Translations under genes and position numbers: made by a program | Origin: Flavihumibacter petaseus NBRC 106054 | Lineage (GTDB): Bacteria; Bacteroidota; Bacteroidia; Chitinophagales; Chitinophagaceae | NCBI RefSeq assembly: GCF_000974785.1 | Contig: NZ_BBWV01000001.1 | Coordinates: forward strand, 1,550,001 to 1,614,000 | Direction of reading: 5' to 3' | Length of the DNA: 64,000 bases | Notes under the pieces: model-generated | What the model was told of the DNA's origin: nothing | The model's database searches: none | Seen by the model: the letters and a program-made list of their open reading frames with translations, nothing else | Part shown: positions 11,927-25,469 of the stretch, piece by piece | Layout: each line of letters begins with the position of its first letter | Numbering within the stretch: the stretch's first letter is position 1

Positions 11927-13042
11927 ATGAAGTTCATCGTTTCCTCTTCGGCCTTATTGAAGCAATTGCAGCAGATCAGTGGTGTTATCAACGCCAATAC
12001 TGTGCTGCCGATTCTGGAAGACTTTCTTTTCGAAATCGACAAAAACAAACTGAATGTTGTTGCCACCGACCTGGAAACTGTGATGCGCGTCCAGATGGAC
12101 ATAGAAGCGAAAGACAGCGGCAGGGTATGTATTCCCGCCAAGATCCTGATCGATTCCCTCAAGAATATCCCTGACCAGCCGCTGACTTTCAATATTGACA
12201 AGAACTTCGGTATCGAGATCACCAGCGATAATGGTAAGTATAAGGTGATGGGTGAAAACCCCGATAATTTCCCCAAGGAACCGGCAGCTGATGATACCAC
12301 TTCTTTTGAAATGACCAGCAGCGCACTGGTAACCGGCATCAACAAGACCCTCTTTGCCGTAAGCAGTGATGATCTTCGTCCCGCGATGACTGGTGTATTC
12401 TTTGAACTCGATAAAAACTATATCCAGTTCGTGGCCACCGATGCCCATCGCCTGGTACGCTACAAGCGCACAGATGTAAAATGTCCCAAGTCAGATAATT
12501 TCATCGTTCCCAAAAAACCCCTGAATATCCTGAAGTCTGCGCTTCCGGATAACGACGACACGATCACCGTTAGTTACAACAGCAACCACCTGTTTGTAAC
12601 CCACGGCAATGCACAGATGAGTTGCCGCCTGATCGATGCCCGCTTCCCCGATTATAAAGTGGTGATCCCGGCTGACAACCCGTACAAAATGCTGGTGGGT
12701 AAAGCTGATTTCCAGGGCGCACTCAGAAGGGTGAGCGTTTTCAGTAACAAAAGCACCAACCAGGTAGTACTGACCATTTCCGGCAGTGAACTGCAACTGG
12801 CTGCCCAGGATATCGACTTCAGCTTCGAAGGAACAGAAAGAATGAAATGCCAGTACGATGGAGAAGATCTTTCCATTGCTTTCAATGCACGTTTCCTGAT
12901 TGAAATGCTGCATGCTGCCGAAAGTGATGAAGTTCGCATGGAGTTGTCCACCCCAACAAAAGCGGGACTGATCAAACCCACTGAGGCAGATGAAAACGAA
13001 GAACTGCTGATGCTGGTGATGCCACTGATGCTGAATGCCTGA
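11927..13042 (+). CDS. dnaN: DNA polymerase III beta subunit (sliding clamp)
   Basis: 371 residues, full length. Forms the ring that tethers the replicative polymerase and many repair enzymes to DNA. It starts MKFIVSSSALLKQLQQISGV and shows the three repeated clamp domains; TNQVVLTISGSELQLAAQD (about 280-298) is the usual third-domain strand pair. It ends in ELLMLVMPLML, matching the conserved C-terminal MPMRL-type tail. It is not next to dnaA or recF but lies about 4 kb from the candidate oriC at 17.0-17.5 kb. The small DUF2007 gene follows after 17 bases. Confidence 0.96.
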   Translation: MKFIVSSSALLKQLQQISGVINANTVLPILEDFLFEIDKNKLNVVATDLETVMRVQMDIEAKDSGRVCIPAKILIDSLKNIPDQPLTFNIDKNFGIEITSDNGKYKVMGENPDNFPKEPAADDTTSFEMTSSALVTGINKTLFAVSSDDLRPAMTGVFFELDKNYIQFVATDAHRLVRYKRTDVKCPKSDNFIVPKKPLNILKSALPDNDDTITVSYNSNHLFVTHGNAQMSCRLIDARFPDYKVVIPADNPYKMLVGKADFQGALRRVSVFSNKSTNQVVLTISGSELQLAAQDIDFSFEGTERMKCQYDGEDLSIAFNARFLIEMLHAAESDEVRMELSTPTKAGLIKPTEADENEELLMLVMPLMLNA

Positions 13043-14911: not shown

Positions 14912-17017
14912 TCAGAGTAATTTTCCCCTTTCGTCTTTAACATCTGCGTTCTTCTTCAGCGCTTCTACAGAACGGTATCCCGCCATCTGGCGCACCTGCA
15001 GCATCATCGCCTTTCGCTGATCTTCAATATTTACACCACCGTCAGGCAATGCACTCACATTATCAGTTTTGATCACGAAAACGCCCATATTTCCCGCGAT
15101 CGGTGCAGAAATCTTAGCCGAATTGGCTTTGTCGAAGGAAGCACCGACAACTTTTTGCTCTTGTCCTACACCCGGAACAAACGGTGCCGCGAAACGGATG
15201 GTATCAGCACGTTGTACTGCAGTCTGGTTAGCAGTCGCAATGGCATCCAGCGTTGTTGCATTTCCGATTTTTTTGGTGATCATAGCCGCTTTCTTTTCAT
15301 TGCGCAGCAGGAACTCCACTTGTGGTCTTGCTTTTGACGCTGACATCACACCTTCTTTATTGATCTCCGTTACCATTGCTACAACATATTTGTCGTCGAT
15401 GGAGAACGGCTCGGAAACATCACCAACTTTGGCTTCGTTGATCCAGCGAACAAGCTGACGGTTTGCACCCAGTCCGGTAATGTTAATATCGTTGGGTTTG
15501 ATGTCAGCTGCCTGCAGTTTGTTCAGCTTTAGTTTGGATACAGCCTCGTCAAATGCTTTTGCATTGCGGTTCTCGCCGGCGAACTGGTTAGCAGCGCCGC
15601 TGGCCGTATTCTCCGTTTCAACGCTGGGGTTGATCGCACGGCTCAGGTAAGCTACCTGGTAAGCGGGCTCAAAATTCTTCTGGCTGAGGATTTCTATATA
15701 ATGGTAGCCGAAATCTGTTTTTACGATTTTTTTATCGCCCACGTTGCCGTAGAAAATCATCTCTGCATATTCCGGAGCCAGGTTGCTGAACTGAAGTGAG
15801 CTCCAGTCATATTCACCACCTTTTTCCTTGCTGCCCTGGTCATCACTGTATTTCAGGGCAAGTGCTGCAAAATCAGCGCCGCCACGGATCGCCTGCTCAA
15901 TGCTGTCAATACGCACTTTGGCAATGCTGTCCGGAGTCTGGGGATTGATCAGGATATGGCGTGCCTTCACACTGTCTGGCATATTCCTTTTGGAGATCAT
16001 TTTTGCAATCACAAAATTGCCACCGTCCAGGTAGGGACCGAAAGTGCCGCCTTCAGGAAGATTACGGATGGTATCGGCGTTGGGTACCTGCAGTTTTGAT
16101 TTCAGCACATAGCCTTTCGTGAATTTTACTTCACTGCTGTTGCGTACGAGGAAAGCAGCCGGATCATTGGTTGCGGAAAATTCACTGTGCAGGTTTTCCA
16201 CAGCTGCTTTGGTCGCTGCTGTATCAGCTGCACTCGGTGCAGCACTGAAACTAACGTAACTGATGCTTCTGCTGGCATCCTGCTTGAACTGGTCTTTGTT
16301 TTTATCCATGTATTGCTGGATATCACCATCGGTTACTTTAACCTCCGCAATGCTGTCACTCACGGTGGCATAAGGAATGGCTACAAAGTTTACGGCAGCA
16401 ATTTCGGTGTTGTCGGCATTTTGCTTTTCAGCCATCCATCTGGGCACATAGTAAGTGTTGCTGACAAGCGAAATATATTTTTCACGCAACCTGTTGTCCA
16501 TGAGGAACGGCAGGTAGACATTGCCGAAATTTTCAGCCATCGGGCTGTTTTGTTTTCTCAGATTCGCAATGGCTGCTCTTGCTGCGTTAGCATCATATAT
16601 GCCATCTTTTGTAGTGAATTGCTGGCGGAGATCCTGCGGCGGGTTGGCACCGAACAGGATATCATCCAGTTCTTTTGGTGTCACCGCGAGACCGAGTTTA
16701 CGATATTGCTCTTTCAGCACGTTTTCTTCAACGAATTGATTCCATACCTGCTCCTGCACGGTCTGACGCATCATTTCATTCATCGGGTAACCACTCTGCT
16801 TATATTGCTCTTCAGTCTGGTTGACACGTGTCTGATAAGTTTTATAGTCGAGGTCTTCACCATTGATAGATCCGATTTTGTCTCTGTTACCGCTGAAAAG
16901 TCCATGGCCGCTTTTTCCTACGAATGCGTCCATTAACAGGAATCCGACAAGACTCAGCGCAATGATGCCAAATACGAGCCATGCTGCCTTCTCCCTGATG
17001 TTCTGAATGATCGACAT
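14912..17017 (-). CDS. PpiD-like periplasmic chaperone / peptidyl-prolyl isomerase
   Basis: 701 residues. One N-terminal membrane anchor (about 12-31, AAWLVFGIIALSLVGFLLMD) is followed by a SurA/PpiD-type N-terminal chaperone region and a parvulin domain (about 350-445: ARHILI, GADFAALALKYSDDQGSKEKGGEYDW written in parts, and DFGYHYIEIL). A long C-terminal helical part follows. It assists folding of exported and outer-membrane proteins. The start MSIIQNIREKAAW is typical of Bacteroidota homologues. Monocistronic, with its own terminator, and divergent from nadA across the candidate origin. Confidence 0.9.
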   Translation of the reverse strand: MSIIQNIREKAAWLVFGIIALSLVGFLLMDAFVGKSGHGLFSGNRDKIGSINGEDLDYKTYQTRVNQTEEQYKQSGYPMNEMMRQTVQEQVWNQFVEENVLKEQYRKLGLAVTPKELDDILFGANPPQDLRQQFTTKDGIYDANAARAAIANLRKQNSPMAENFGNVYLPFLMDNRLREKYISLVSNTYYVPRWMAEKQNADNTEIAAVNFVAIPYATVSDSIAEVKVTDGDIQQYMDKNKDQFKQDASRSISYVSFSAAPSAADTAATKAAVENLHSEFSATNDPAAFLVRNSSEVKFTKGYVLKSKLQVPNADTIRNLPEGGTFGPYLDGGNFVIAKMISKRNMPDSVKARHILINPQTPDSIAKVRIDSIEQAIRGGADFAALALKYSDDQGSKEKGGEYDWSSLQFSNLAPEYAEMIFYGNVGDKKIVKTDFGYHYIEILSQKNFEPAYQVAYLSRAINPSVETENTASGAANQFAGENRNAKAFDEAVSKLKLNKLQAADIKPNDINITGLGANRQLVRWINEAKVGDVSEPFSIDDKYVVAMVTEINKEGVMSASKARPQVEFLLRNEKKAAMITKKIGNATTLDAIATANQTAVQRADTIRFAAPFVPGVGQEQKVVGASFDKANSAKISAPIAGNMGVFVIKTDNVSALPDGGVNIEDQRKAMMLQVRQMAGYRSVEALKKNADVKDERGKLL

Positions 17018-17552
17018 GATGCTAGTTGATTATTATATTATAGGGTTTTTCAAAAAATGAGAAGCGAAAATAAGGAAAAACGCCATATGAACAAATTGTG
17101 GAAAAGGCCTGAAATACAGTACAAATCAGCATTTCAGGCAATATGTGGGATGCGTTTTTCTTTCCGTGGAACCTGTTTTAACATCCGGTGTGGATGATCG
17201 TGTTTTTTCGTGGATAAACCCCGTTTACCACCTCCGCCGACTGTCTGTAATTTTAGGAAAAGTACCGGAGGATGGGTAAAGCGATCAGGGGGGTAGGTAA
17301 AACCCCTCCTTTTTTAACGGCCAATCAACATAGGGAGCCTGGAATTGTTTTACAGTGAATGACTATTCCACAGCTGTTGAAAAACAAGGCAGTTCCGCAA
17401 GGGCACAGTATTTTGAATGGGGAATTTATGTGGATTACTGTTCATAAGCTGCTAATTTTGATATTTCCAAGCTATAATAAATTTCTTATCCCCATATCCA
17501 CAGCCCTAATAGTAATAGGTATTTTATAAAATAATGTATTATAGTATTTATT
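17018..17552. other. oriC: Candidate chromosomal replication origin (oriC)
   Basis: 535-bp gap without a gene between divergent transcripts. Compared with TTATCCACA (TTWTNCACA), DnaA boxes are: 17097-17105 minus TTTTCCACA (fits the consensus); one mismatch at 17189-17197 minus, 17209-17217 minus, 17429-17437 minus, 17486-17494 plus and 17494-17502 plus; two mismatches at 17364-17372 plus. The last boxes adjoin an AT-rich stretch running to the nadA start. dnaN is 4 kb away on one side and mnmG plus two parS-like sites are 4-6 kb away on the other. Rival reading: an ordinary divergent promoter region. No promoter pair was recognised in it. Confidence 0.7.
17507..17552. other. AT-rich putative DNA unwinding element
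   Basis: 46 bases, about 85% A+T, beginning TAATAGTAATAG right after the last DnaA box and a GCCC cluster (17503-17506), ending at the nadA ATG. Position and composition suit the duplex-opening element of the candidate origin. It also serves as the nadA leader. Confidence 0.5.
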
Positions 17553-18569
17553 ATGAGCGATATCAACATAGCTGAAGCGAAGATCAATTTGGAAAAAAAA
17601 GGTTTCCTGGATCTCGGGATTGACCCGACCATGGATGTATTTGCCGAGATCGAGCGGTTGAAAAAAGAAAAAAATGCCATTGTGCTGGCGCACTATTACC
17701 AGGAGCCGGATATCCAGGACGTGGCCGATTATATTGGGGATAGTCTTGGTCTTGCACAGCAGGCCGAGAAAACCCAGGCGGATATTATTGTTTTTGCCGG
17801 TGTGCATTTTATGGCAGAAACTGCGAAAATCCTGAATCCTTCGAAAAAGGTTTTGCTGCCAGACCTGAAAGCGGGTTGTTCACTGGCTGATTCTGCGCCC
17901 GCAGATCTTTTCAGGAAGTTTAAGGAGAAGCATCCGGATCACCTCGTTGTGTCTTACATCAATTGCACGGCAGATATTAAAGCTTTAAGTGATATTATTT
18001 GTACGAGCAGCAATGCGGAAAAAATAATTGAAAGCATTCCGGTTGATCAGCCCATCCTCTTTGCACCAGACAAGAATCTTGGCGCTTACCTGAATAAGAA
18101 AACCGGGCGCAATATGTTGTTGTGGAACGGTGCCTGTATGGTTCATGAGATTTTCAGCCTGGAGAAAATTACCAAACTGAAAACCCGGCACCCCAATGCC
18201 AAACTGATCGCACACCCTGAATGTGAAGATCCGCTGTTGCGGATGGCGGATTACATCGGGAGCACAACTCAACTGCTGAAATATACCCAGCAGGACAATG
18301 GTTCGGAATATATTGTGGCAACTGAAACAGGCATTTTGCACCAGATGCAGAAGGCCAGCCCGGAAAAGCATTTTATACCCGCGCCACCGGACAATAGTTG
18401 CGCGTGCAATGATTGTCCCCACATGAAGCTCAATACGCTCGAGAAGCTGTATTTATGCATGGAATACGAGGCACCTGAGATCCTGATGGAGGAGCAACTC
18501 AGGCTCGCTGCCAAAAAGCCGATTGACAGGATGTTGGAGATCAGTCGTGCTGCCGGGCTAATTGGATAA
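17553..18569 (+). CDS. nadA: Quinolinate synthase
   Basis: 338 residues. NadA condenses iminoaspartate with dihydroxyacetone phosphate to quinolinate in NAD synthesis and carries an oxygen-sensitive [4Fe-4S] cluster. Candidate ligands are Cys in [10 protein letters not shown] (about 109), NGACMVHE (about 193) and the late [14 protein letters not shown] (about 282-295). The N-terminal [20 protein letters not shown] (about 35-54) is the family's substrate site. nadB and nadC are not nearby; nadD lies 6 kb downstream. Start ATG follows directly on the AT-rich stretch. Confidence 0.95.
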
Positions 18570-21045: not shown

Positions 21046-22914
21046 TTACCTGCCCATATACACCATCAGGATCTGAACGTCAGAGGGATTAATACCACTG
21101 ATCCGGCTAGCCTGACCGAGAGTTCTCGGTCTGATCCGTTTAAGTTTCTCCCTGGCTTCATTGCTGATGGAATTCAAACGGGAATAGTCGAATGATTCCG
21201 GGATTTCGAGGTTATCCATCTGGGACATCCTGTCTACCAGTTCTTTTTCTTTCTCGATATAGATATCGTATTTGAGTTGGATCTCGGCTTGTTCCAGTGA
21301 TGCTTTAGGGAAGTTTTCGAATGCTTCCTGAAGTGCAGGGGTATGATCAACCAGGCTGGACAGACCAATGTTTGGACGCAGGAGTAATTGCGCTGCTTTC
21401 TGTTTCTGGGTAAGCGGAGCGGAACCTATTGAATGTAGATACGAATTGATGCCCGAAGGCTCAAGGGAAATTTCTTGAAGGACTTTTTTCGCTTCAGCCG
21501 TTTTTTCATTTTTCCGTGTTACCAGGTCCATGCGTTCCTGGCTGGCCAGACCCATACGGTAGCTTTTTTCTGTGAGCCGGATATCAGCATTGTCCTGGCG
21601 CAGGAGTGTTCTGAATTCTGCCCGGCTGGTGAACATGCGATAGGGTTCTTCGGTTCCCTTACTGATCAGGTCGTCGATCAGTACCCCGATATAGGCTTCA
21701 CTTCTTTTAAGAATGAAAGGATCTTTTTCATTGGATTTAAGGTGAGCATTGATCCCGGCCATGAGTCCCTGGCAGGCAGCTTCTTCATAACCGGTGGTGC
21801 CGTTGATTTGTCCTGCGAAAAATAGATTCTGGATCCTTTTAGTCTCTAATGAATAGGTGAGTTGCGTCGGTGGGAAGAAATCATATTCAATAGCATACCC
21901 GGGACGGAACATCTTGGCGTTTTCAAATCCGGGAATGGTTTGAAGGGCTTTATATTGAACGTCTTCCGGCAAGGAGGTGCTGAAACCGTTTACGTAGATT
22001 TCAACAGTGTTCCATCCTTCAGGTTCAACAAAGATCTGGTGCCTTTCCCGGTCAGCGAAACGGTTGATCTTGTCTTCGATGCTCGGACAGTACCTTGGAC
22101 CCACCCCTTCAATTCTGCCGGTGTACATGGGACTGCGATCAAAACCTGTCTTCAGGATTTCATGGGTGAGGTTGCTGGTGTAGCTGATAAAACAACTCCG
22201 CTGTTCAGAAGCTTTGATGGTGGGAGGTTTCAGGTAAGAAAACCCGGTAAGAAGATCATCCCCCTTTTGTTCTTCCATTTTGGAGTAGTCGAGGCTTCTG
22301 CCGTCAATCCGGGGAGGAGTTCCGGTTTTGAGGCGGTCAGCTTCAAAACCCAGTTCAACCAGTTGTTCGGTGATTCCGGAAGCTGCTTTTTCTGCAACCC
22401 TTCCCCCGCCAAAACGTTTCTCACCGATATGGATCACTCCGTTCAGAAAGGTCCCGCTGGTAACTACGACGGATTTGGTAGGAATTTCATGCCCCAACCC
22501 GGTAATTACACCACAAGCGCGGTTGTCCTTGATGATCAATCCCTTTACCATATCCTGGTAAAAGTCCACATTGGGGGTTTGTTCCAGCATTTCCCGCCAG
22601 GTAGCAGCAAAGAGCATACGGTCATTCTGAGCTCTTGGACTCCACATGGCTGGACCTTTGGAAAGATTCAGCATCCTGAACTGGATCATGCTTTTATCCG
22701 TTACGATACCAGAATAGCCACCCAGCGCATCGATTTCCCGCACGATCTGGCCTTTGGCAATACCACCCATAGCCGGATTACAGCTCATTTGAGCGATGGT
22801 TTGCATATTCATGGTAACGAGCAATACCTTGCTGCCCATATTGGCAGCTGCCGCTGCAGCTTCACAGCCAGCATGACCGGCACCAACAACAATTACATCA
22901 TATTCTGGGAACAT
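21046..22914 (-). CDS. mnmG: tRNA uridine-5-carboxymethylaminomethyl modification enzyme MnmG (GidA)
   Basis: 622 residues, full length. With MnmE it builds the cmnm5 group on wobble uridine 34. The FAD site is VIVVGAGHAGCEAA (about 8-21). Other family markers are MSCNPAMGGIAKGQIVREID (about 44-63), FRMLNLSKGPAMWSPRAQND (about 82-101), PPRIDGRSLDYSKM and the C-terminal LGQASRISGI. mnmE is not in the window. mnmG (gidA) is often close to the replication origin in bacteria, which agrees with the parS-like pair just upstream and the candidate oriC 4 kb away. A TAATTTTG -7-like element is on the minus strand at 22931-22938. Confidence 0.96.
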   Translation of the reverse strand: MFPEYDVIVVGAGHAGCEAAAAAANMGSKVLLVTMNMQTIAQMSCNPAMGGIAKGQIVREIDALGGYSGIVTDKSMIQFRMLNLSKGPAMWSPRAQNDRMLFAATWREMLEQTPNVDFYQDMVKGLIIKDNRACGVITGLGHEIPTKSVVVTSGTFLNGVIHIGEKRFGGGRVAEKAASGITEQLVELGFEADRLKTGTPPRIDGRSLDYSKMEEQKGDDLLTGFSYLKPPTIKASEQRSCFISYTSNLTHEILKTGFDRSPMYTGRIEGVGPRYCPSIEDKINRFADRERHQIFVEPEGWNTVEIYVNGFSTSLPEDVQYKALQTIPGFENAKMFRPGYAIEYDFFPPTQLTYSLETKRIQNLFFAGQINGTTGYEEAACQGLMAGINAHLKSNEKDPFILKRSEAYIGVLIDDLISKGTEEPYRMFTSRAEFRTLLRQDNADIRLTEKSYRMGLASQERMDLVTRKNEKTAEAKKVLQEISLEPSGINSYLHSIGSAPLTQKQKAAQLLLRPNIGLSSLVDHTPALQEAFENFPKASLEQAEIQLKYDIYIEKEKELVDRMSQMDNLEIPESFDYSRLNSISNEAREKLKRIRPRTLGQASRISGINPSDVQILMVYMGR

Positions 22915-23015: not shown

Positions 23016-23031
23016 TGTTCCACGTGGAACC
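23016..23031. promoter_or_regulatory. parS: parS-like centromere site 1
   Basis: TGTTCCACGTGGAACC, core palindrome GTTCCACGTGGAAC at 23017-23030. It differs from the broad parS consensus TGTTTCACGTGAAACA at only two symmetrical positions, so it is a likely ParB-binding site for chromosome partition. It lies in a 310-bp gap that has no gene. Confidence 0.75.
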
Positions 23032-23206: not shown

Positions 23207-23222
23207 CGTTCCACGTGGAACA
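23207..23222. promoter_or_regulatory. parS: parS-like centromere site 2
   Basis: CGTTCCACGTGGAACA contains the same 14-bp palindrome (23208-23221) as site 1, 191 bp away. Two exact copies of a 14-bp palindrome in one gap strongly suggest a shared binding protein, most simply ParB. Confidence 0.75.
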
Positions 23223-24542: not shown

Positions 24543-25469
24543 ATGCGTGCAGTCACCTGCCTGATTTCCTGTCTGTTATGCTGTACAATCGTTGCCGCGC
24601 AGCCTGCGGACAAAAAACTGGAAGCCCGGATCAGACCCCTCCTGGAAAATTTTCCTGGCGACGCCGGGATCTATGTAAAAAACCTGCGATCGGGGAAAAC
24701 AGTCAATATTGCTGCCGACACGGTTTTCCCAACCGCTTCCATGATCAAAATCCCGATCCTCCTGGGCATCATGAAGAAACTGGAAAAGGGCGAACTCTAC
24801 TACCACCAGCAGCTGGTATACAAAGACTCCCTGCTTTATGAAGGCGAAGACTTACTGGGTTCCTTCAAATCCGGCGAAAAGATTGAACTGTCCAAACTCC
24901 TGCTGCTGATGGCTTCTATGAGCGATAACACCGCCAGCCTCTGGCTCCAGTCCCTTGCCGGCGGTGGTATCAGGATCAACCAGTTACTCGACAGCCTCGG
25001 ATTCGTATCTACCCGCATGAATAGCAGGACCACGGGCCGGGAAGCATTCAGAAACATTTACGGATGGGGACAAACCTCTCCCAAAGAAATGAGCGCCCTT
25101 CTTGAAAGAATTTATCGCGACGCGCTGGTAAACGATACGCTGAAGGATCGCATGCTGCGGACCCTATCCCGCAATTACTGGGATGAAGAAGCATTGTCAC
25201 AGATCCCTCCGGAAATCCAGACCTTTTCTAAAAACGGCGCAGTGGATGCATCCCGCAGCGAGACCGTGTTGGTCATGGCACCCCATGGCCCCTACCTGTT
25301 CACCGTAATGACGAAAAACCTTTCCGATACCACCTGGCAGAGCAACAATCCTGGCTGGATCCTCGCCCGGAAACTGTCCCGCCTCTTGTGGGAATACTTC
25401 GAACCCGGTTACCAGTGGTCCCCTGTAATGGAAGTTACCGGCAACCCACGCACTGACCGGCACGACTAG
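24543..25469 (+). CDS. Class A beta-lactamase-like serine hydrolase
   Basis: 308 residues with a signal peptide (about 1-19, ending VAAQ). Class A landmarks are in order: SxxK as S66-M-I-K69, SDN at 127-129, a possible omega-loop Glu-x-x-x-Asn in REAFRN, then TSPKEMSALL, and a KNG triad near 225 (KTG position). It could be a true beta-lactamase or a related periplasmic D,D-peptidase/esterase. The Gly-poor KNG and the odd omega loop leave activity open. No ampR-like regulator adjoins. Follows nadD by 21 bases, so it may be read through. Confidence 0.78.
   Translation: MRAVTCLISCLLCCTIVAAQPADKKLEARIRPLLENFPGDAGIYVKNLRSGKTVNIAADTVFPTASMIKIPILLGIMKKLEKGELYYHQQLVYKDSLLYEGEDLLGSFKSGEKIELSKLLLLMASMSDNTASLWLQSLAGGGIRINQLLDSLGFVSTRMNSRTTGREAFRNIYGWGQTSPKEMSALLERIYRDALVNDTLKDRMLRTLSRNYWDEEALSQIPPEIQTFSKNGAVDASRSETVLVMAPHGPYLFTVMTKNLSDTTWQSNNPGWILARKLSRLLWEYFEPGYQWSPVMEVTGNPRTDRHD

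Follow-up and report, generated by a model that had tools for sequence, protein, structure and literature searches.

The 535-bp gap between divergent ppiD-like and nadA genes is predicted, with a probability of about 0.94, to be the DnaA-dependent replication origin (oriC) of the chromosome, of the kind with a basal unwinding system (BUS). The gap lies in a stretch of 64,000 nucleotides, called the window here (contig C22, 1550001-1614000), of a genome with 5,687,994 bases in 22 contigs. The original prediction had regarded this gap as a candidate chromosomal origin, and the reading is supported by what was computed here: a cluster of DnaA-box-like sites, a conserved core, parS sites next to this locus only, a turn of GC skew at the locus in two congeners, with the two arms of the own contig differing more coarsely, and a relative (G015) in which the core is by parS and not by nadA. 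Origins of the DnaA/BUS kind are already known; the conserved core had not been described in the original prediction.

Cluster of DnaA-box-like sites between ppiD and nadA

The features discussed below are as follows (position in the window, strand, description).

17018..17552, no strand: predicted oriC, intergenic between the divergent ppiD-like gene and nadA; box cluster, with counterpart regions in relatives
14912..17017, minus: ppiD/SurA-like gene (Pfam; context)
17553..18569, plus: nadA, quinolinate synthase (Pfam; context)
11927..13042, plus: dnaN, sliding clamp gene, 4 kb from the gap (Pfam; context)
21046..22914, minus: mnmG/gidA, 3.5 kb from the gap (Pfam; context)
17097..17105, minus: DnaA-box-like site TTTTCCACA; position poorly conserved (2 of 12 congeners)
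17189..17197, minus: DnaA-box-like site TCATCCACA; 1 of 12 congeners at one mismatch or fewer, 10 of 12 at two or fewer
17209..17217, minus: DnaA-box-like site TTATCCACG; 5 of 12 congeners at one mismatch or fewer, 12 of 12 at two or fewer
17429..17437, minus: DnaA-box-like site TAATCCACA, forming a close pair with the next; kept at one mismatch or fewer by 10 of 13 congeners
17439..17447, minus: DnaA-box-like site TTATGAACA, second of the close pair; 13 of 13 congeners at one mismatch or fewer
17453..17460, plus: TAATTTTG, similar to the Bacteroidota -7 promoter element TANNTTTG; predicted nadA transcription start near 17465
17486..17494, plus: TTATCCCCA, the upstream one of two tandem boxes; kept at one mismatch or fewer by 9 of 13 congeners
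17494..17502, plus: ATATCCACA, the downstream one of the two tandem boxes; kept at one mismatch or fewer by 11 of 13 congeners
17506..17517, plus: four DnaA-trios, CTA ATA GTA ATA, after a GCC spacer; strict core single in the genome, conserved at nadA loci
17518..17552, plus: AT-rich stretch between the trios and the start codon of nadA, presumed to serve as the unwinding element (sequence; AT profile)
23016..23031, no strand: parS-like palindrome TGTTCCACGTGGAACC (palindrome search)
23207..23222, no strand: parS-like palindrome CGTTCCACGTGGAACA (palindrome search)

Open reading frames and Pfam domains confirmed the divergent gene pair and the extent of the gap, and the positions originally given for dnaN on one side and for mnmG and two parS-like sites on the other were found to be correct. 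Seven sites in the gap are at one mismatch from TTATNCACA (17097, 17189, 17209, 17429 and 17439 on the minus strand, 17486 and 17494 on the plus strand). The claim of a cluster far above chance was upheld, but the one consensus box counted at first was not, since no exact match to TTATNCACA was found in the gap and all seven sites carry one mismatch; the 17097 site TTTTCCACA matches the looser TTWTNCACA perfectly. Dinucleotide shuffles of the gap gave a mean of 0.77 sites and a maximum of 6, and seven were reached in 0 of 2000. The DnaA-box density scan suggested with the original prediction also favored the gap: the best cluster of the same width (535 bp) elsewhere in the own genome has 4 sites in the 843 kb sampled (447,486 and 396,000 further bases), a scan that took in every base between 1.550 and 1.670 Mb of the own contig. 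The total for the whole window is ordinary (59 sites against 47 expected, 59 being reached by 6 of 100 shuffles), and the unusual feature is the clustering of box-like sites, not their number over the whole window.

With up to two mismatches allowed, six of the seven box positions are retained in no fewer than 10 of the 12 or 13 congeners compared; with one mismatch allowed, three of these six are retained in no fewer than 10 of 13. The baseline from random positions at one mismatch has a mean of 6% and a 95th percentile of 42%; L035, which has no anchor, was left out of the comparison. The second box of the close pair reads TTATCCACA in five congeners inspected. Conservation of the boxes and their position, a criterion for an oriC which the original prediction had also named, was found for the inner four boxes (9-13 of 13 congeners at one mismatch or fewer) and for the core described below, but the outer three boxes are kept much less.

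Predicted unwinding core and its conservation

The core occupies the nadA end of the gap (17486-17517). Its tandem boxes, 17486-17494 and 17494-17502, share one base and are followed by GCC and then by CTA ATA GTA ATA GG (17506-17519). On the opposite strand, which we take to be the one carrying the trios, these read 3'-GAT TAT CAT TAT-5'. The available text on the BUS rule (PMC8287927) requires at least three trios 3'-NAN-5' at most 16 bp from a DnaA box, with a peak at 10-13 bp counted from the better box. With its four trios, separated by 3 bp from the near box and by 11 bp from the upstream one, the present core conforms to this rule. It resembles the BUS oriC of Bacillus subtilis, as described in the same available text, in having tandem boxes, a spacer and trios, with 3'-GAT-5' next to the box, and in the 11 bp that separate the upstream box from the trios (PMC8287927). 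The AT-rich end predicted for the gap is present, with 2 G in the 33 bases of 17520-17552 and A and T in the remainder, and the AT-rich element adjoining the boxes, a criterion for a DnaA-dependent oriC, is therefore found at 17518-17552. For 86 loci, the AT fraction in 10-base bins starting at the core end is 0.73, 0.97 and 0.92.

How such a site would work, from DnaA binding to segregation, we infer from known origins. DnaA would bind the box cluster, and its oligomer, guided by the tandem boxes (17486-17502), would extend onto one strand of the trios (17506-17517). The AT-rich stretch between the trios and nadA would then melt, the helicase would be loaded and two forks would leave, and ParB on the two parS sites 5.5 kb off would segregate the new origins.

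A loose trio pattern, CCACAN{1,8}TARTARTAR, is not rare in the genome (3 matches against 4 in the reversed control), and the argument therefore rests on conservation. The nadA gene was matched in 47 of 59 genomes, and 30 loci, own included, were examined. Upstream of nadA, the strict core is present in 21 of the 30 and a variant in 7 more (28 in total, own included). Among the nine loci lacking the strict form, a looser pattern was found in L037, L039, L040, L041, L043 and L050, a variant was recognised by eye in L038, a remnant only is left in L035, and neither the strict nor the looser pattern was found upstream of nadA in L048. Of 195 genomes of the family, the own one counted, 43 contain the pattern CACANNNNTAATARTARTAGG, in one copy each, against 2 matches in total for the reversed control; it was not found in the other 152, a count that covers the strict form only. 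Thirty family loci with the core were fetched, own included; nadA is beside the core in 27, and L062, L073 and L074 have the core without a nadA match. A draw of 296 genomes from the phylum gave a stricter form of the core in four (own included; control 0), all among the 11 members of the same family, and the core in this form is therefore a family feature.

A collection with one genome per species (84,980 species) gave 79 stretches with the core, and 74 of them have a nadA match downstream, at a distance of 33-36 bp in 39, 37-170 bp in 34 and 455 bp in L182. A ppiD-like match is found upstream in 61 of the 79 stretches, at up to 1.05 kb in 58 of them and at 2.8-2.9 kb in three. The sequences of L193 and L200 stop 61 and 20 bp past the core, with a ppiD-like match on the opposite side. 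Two core matches look like chance, that of L139 (Coprobacter) with 2 box-like sites in 500 bp and that of L162 (a Bacteroidales MAG) with none in 500 bp. The contig L174 of a Zambryskibacteria MAG has the core at 2254-2276 together with 11 box-like sites, and 88 bp downstream begins a match to dnaN that is weak (25% identity); this is apparently an independent origin of the classical kind with the same core sequence.

parS sites, strand asymmetry and the position of dnaA

A search of the entire genome gave two copies of the palindrome GTTNCACGTGNAAC, which lie in the window at 5.5 kb from the gap, and none of its reversed control; parS near oriC, a common but not universal criterion, is thus found in the own genome. 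The sole ParB HTH domain match is on contig C21. A gene for a Beta-lactamase2 family protein (24543-25469) is located close to the parS sites. Thirteen relatives were hand-picked for single or few contigs or for the presence of the core: parS is near the locus in 11, and the palindrome is absent from G018 and G492. Of the 28 palindromes in these genomes (7 matches for the reversed control), 27 are within 10 kb of nadA or the core and the other is 0.8 Mb off (G031).

Among 32 further chosen genomes, parS is within 20 kb of nadA in 19 (70 matches in total, 4 for the reversed control), namely in all 7 congeners, 9 of 14 other genomes of the family and 3 of 11 genomes of other families. This set left out the congeners G002, G004, G006 and G010, the family genomes G025 and G030, and genomes of the order lacking a nadA match or having a short one (G040). 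Within the family, parS and nadA are 34 kb apart in G032, 379 kb apart in G015 and on separate contigs in G019 and G023; among the 11 genomes of other families, they are on separate contigs in 6 and the palindrome is absent in 2. Whole-genome searches did not find the palindrome in G021, G037 and G048.

G015 bears on the alternative that the boxes and trios are no origin but a regulatory region through which DnaA controls nadA (or ppiD), an alternative that we consider very unlikely. The short distance of 33-36 bp in 39 of the 74 loci and a promoter-like element directly upstream of the core, beside the box pair, would fit such a region, but nadA of G015 has no core upstream and 2 box-like sites in 700 bp. 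Within 20 kb around parS, the same genome has a three-trio variant of the core, TATTCACAGCCCTAATAGTAGT, with parS at 4.2 kb and mnmG at 5.4 kb, and this variant belongs to the best box cluster of the 20-kb stretch (6 sites). It is flanked by an ABC-transporter gene and a hydrolase gene (L274 3763-7045), with no nadA match there. In this one genome, where nadA is 379 kb from parS, the core thus goes with parS and mnmG and not with nadA. Regulation of nadA is also at odds with skew and parS, both pointing to an origin, and with the same core standing 88 bp before the dnaN match on the unrelated Zambryskibacteria contig.

GC skew was sampled at points along the own contig, one of the 22 of its genome, and with 215-250 kb sampling in the single-contig congeners G007 and G012. 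The own contig has a mean skew of -0.030 left of the gap (n=25; 23 of 25 negative) and +0.017 right of it (n=17; 11 of 17 positive), and the arms differ (p=7e-5). Its best change point falls between two neighbouring samples, those at 1.634 and 1.650 Mb, with the gap at 1.567 Mb, and the turn is thus 67-83 kb to the right of the gap. The skew is still negative from 1.567 to 1.650 Mb, right of the predicted origin, perhaps owing to a local inversion. Coding strand also differs between the arms (-0.31 vs +0.31, p=0.0019), and third-position GC skew shows no difference between them (p=0.72). For G007 and G012, the locus falls inside the best origin interval (1 and 0 of 20000 permutations), and coding strand gives no support for the locus in G007 (p=0.60). 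The skew of G018 is weak, its minimum being 0.7-0.9 Mb from the locus, and the locus as origin is equalled by 501 of 20000 permutations; GC skew of G407 lends no support to the locus (15876 of 20000). In these two genomes third-position GC skew gives no support (p=0.68 and 0.95), and coding strand (p=0.076 in G018, 0.051 in G407) and third-position AT skew (p=0.075 and 0.018) lean to the locus. G407, of 8.4 Mb, has no usable GC-skew pattern despite its core, and its parS sites are 3.6 and 4.3 kb from the core. According to the available text of PMC5850607, inversions in Bacteroidetes are less centred on the ori-ter axis than those of other clades; such off-axis inversions might blur skew in Bacteroidetes. 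For the skew minimum proposed as a check, the genomes disagree: the turn is at the locus in G007 and G012, but it is 67-83 kb off in the own contig and displaced in G018, and G407 is unsupportive.

The displaced turn in the own contig would fit a DnaA titration or recharging site (datA/DARS-like) in the gap, near but distinct from the true origin, a reading that we regard as highly improbable. Trios next to an AT-rich unwinding stretch, as predicted for the gap, are not known from datA or DARS; furthermore, no other cluster of more than 4 sites exists between 1.550 and 1.670 Mb, a span in which the best turn of skew is included, and the parS sites, 5.5 kb from the gap, are on its near side.

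As originally noted, dnaA is not in the window: the only match to the DnaA ATPase domain in the genome sits on contig C19, and dnaA is thus not adjacent to the locus. The own DnaA has N-terminal, ATPase and C-terminal domains encoded. The distance between dnaA and the locus, by the shorter way round, is 1.2-1.9 Mb in seven single-contig relatives (about 1.17 Mb in G007, 1.22 in G012, 1.78 in G018, 1.94 in G031, 1.44 in G035, 1.8 in G436 and 1.43 in G407). The chromosome records of G007 and G012 start at dnaA (L211, L208; C1 position 412), about 1.2 Mb from the predicted origin. That the origin is at dnaA, where these two records begin, with a secondary cluster on the nadA side, has a negligible probability, because no 535-bp stretch at dnaA has more than 3 sites in the loci of 10 relatives (the stretch before dnaA being cut by the record start in G007 and G012) and the own genome has 3 sites there in 3.5 kb, skew scores are lower at dnaA than at the locus (-0.009 vs 0.044 in G007, 0.015 vs 0.038 in G012), and every parS palindrome of G007 and G012 is by nadA.

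The oriC of B. subtilis lies between dnaA and dnaN; unlike it, the origin predicted here lies between ppiD and nadA, with dnaA more than 1 Mb off in single-contig relatives. That of Escherichia coli is away from dnaA with mnmG (gidA) in its neighbourhood, and the present locus is similar in both respects but has mnmG at 3.5 kb, not adjacent, and is flanked by ppiD and nadA. A gidA-mioC origin position is mentioned in the available text of PMC10225481. For gut bacteria including two Bacteroidetes, the available text of PMC10197239 places origins by parS, skew and read coverage and states that dnaA does not always mark the origin. As with those origins, clustered parS sites mark the one predicted here, and dnaA is not always a guide to it; the members of the phylum treated there are different, and that text describes no sequence core. 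A literature search over titles, abstract starts and passages gave no description of a nadA-side origin, and predictions in DoriC or by Ori-Finder may list some.

A possible nadA leader across the core, and use of the core as a landmark

The promoter-like element beside the box pair was compared over 86 loci. This set started from 138 loci, with L062, L073, L074, L139, L162 and L174 dropped beforehand, and was obtained by removing a further nine without the strict core and five that were too short and by merging duplicates. The consensus of the Bacteroidota -7 element is TANNTTTG in the available text of PMC6847099. A TAAYTTTR-like element is conserved on the upstream side of the core at a nearly constant distance: 64 of the 86 loci, the own one among them, have TA[AC][CT]TTT[GA] in the span 25-60 bp before the core, against 1 of 86 with its reverse complement there and 0-7 with the pattern in other spans. 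The strict TANNTTTG is found in 42 of 86 (control spans 0, 4, 0 and 11; reverse complement 0). In 57 of 66 loci, minus-strand box-like sites precede the first base of this element by 5-35 bp. Support for a -33 element TTTG is weak (7 of 66 loci, against 1 of 66 for the control GTTT), which lowers the promoter reading.

The element upstream of the core and the adjoining boxes lead to a speculative extension, to which we attach only tentative belief: the core may be part of a transcribed nadA leader, with DnaA coupling NAD synthesis to initiation and transcription of nadA helping the origin to open. Each nadA transcript would then cross the tandem boxes, the trios and the AT-rich stretch, and DnaA on the box pair at 17429-17447 would cover the nadA promoter. 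Such an arrangement would be old in the family and lost where nadA and the origin parted. With core and nadA lying close together in many species, such a coupling of origin opening to a metabolic promoter can be put to the test.

The core provides a sequence landmark for the predicted origin across much of Chitinophagaceae, where dnaA misleads. The right origin is needed for growth-rate estimates from read depth, for replichore analyses and for oriC plasmids.
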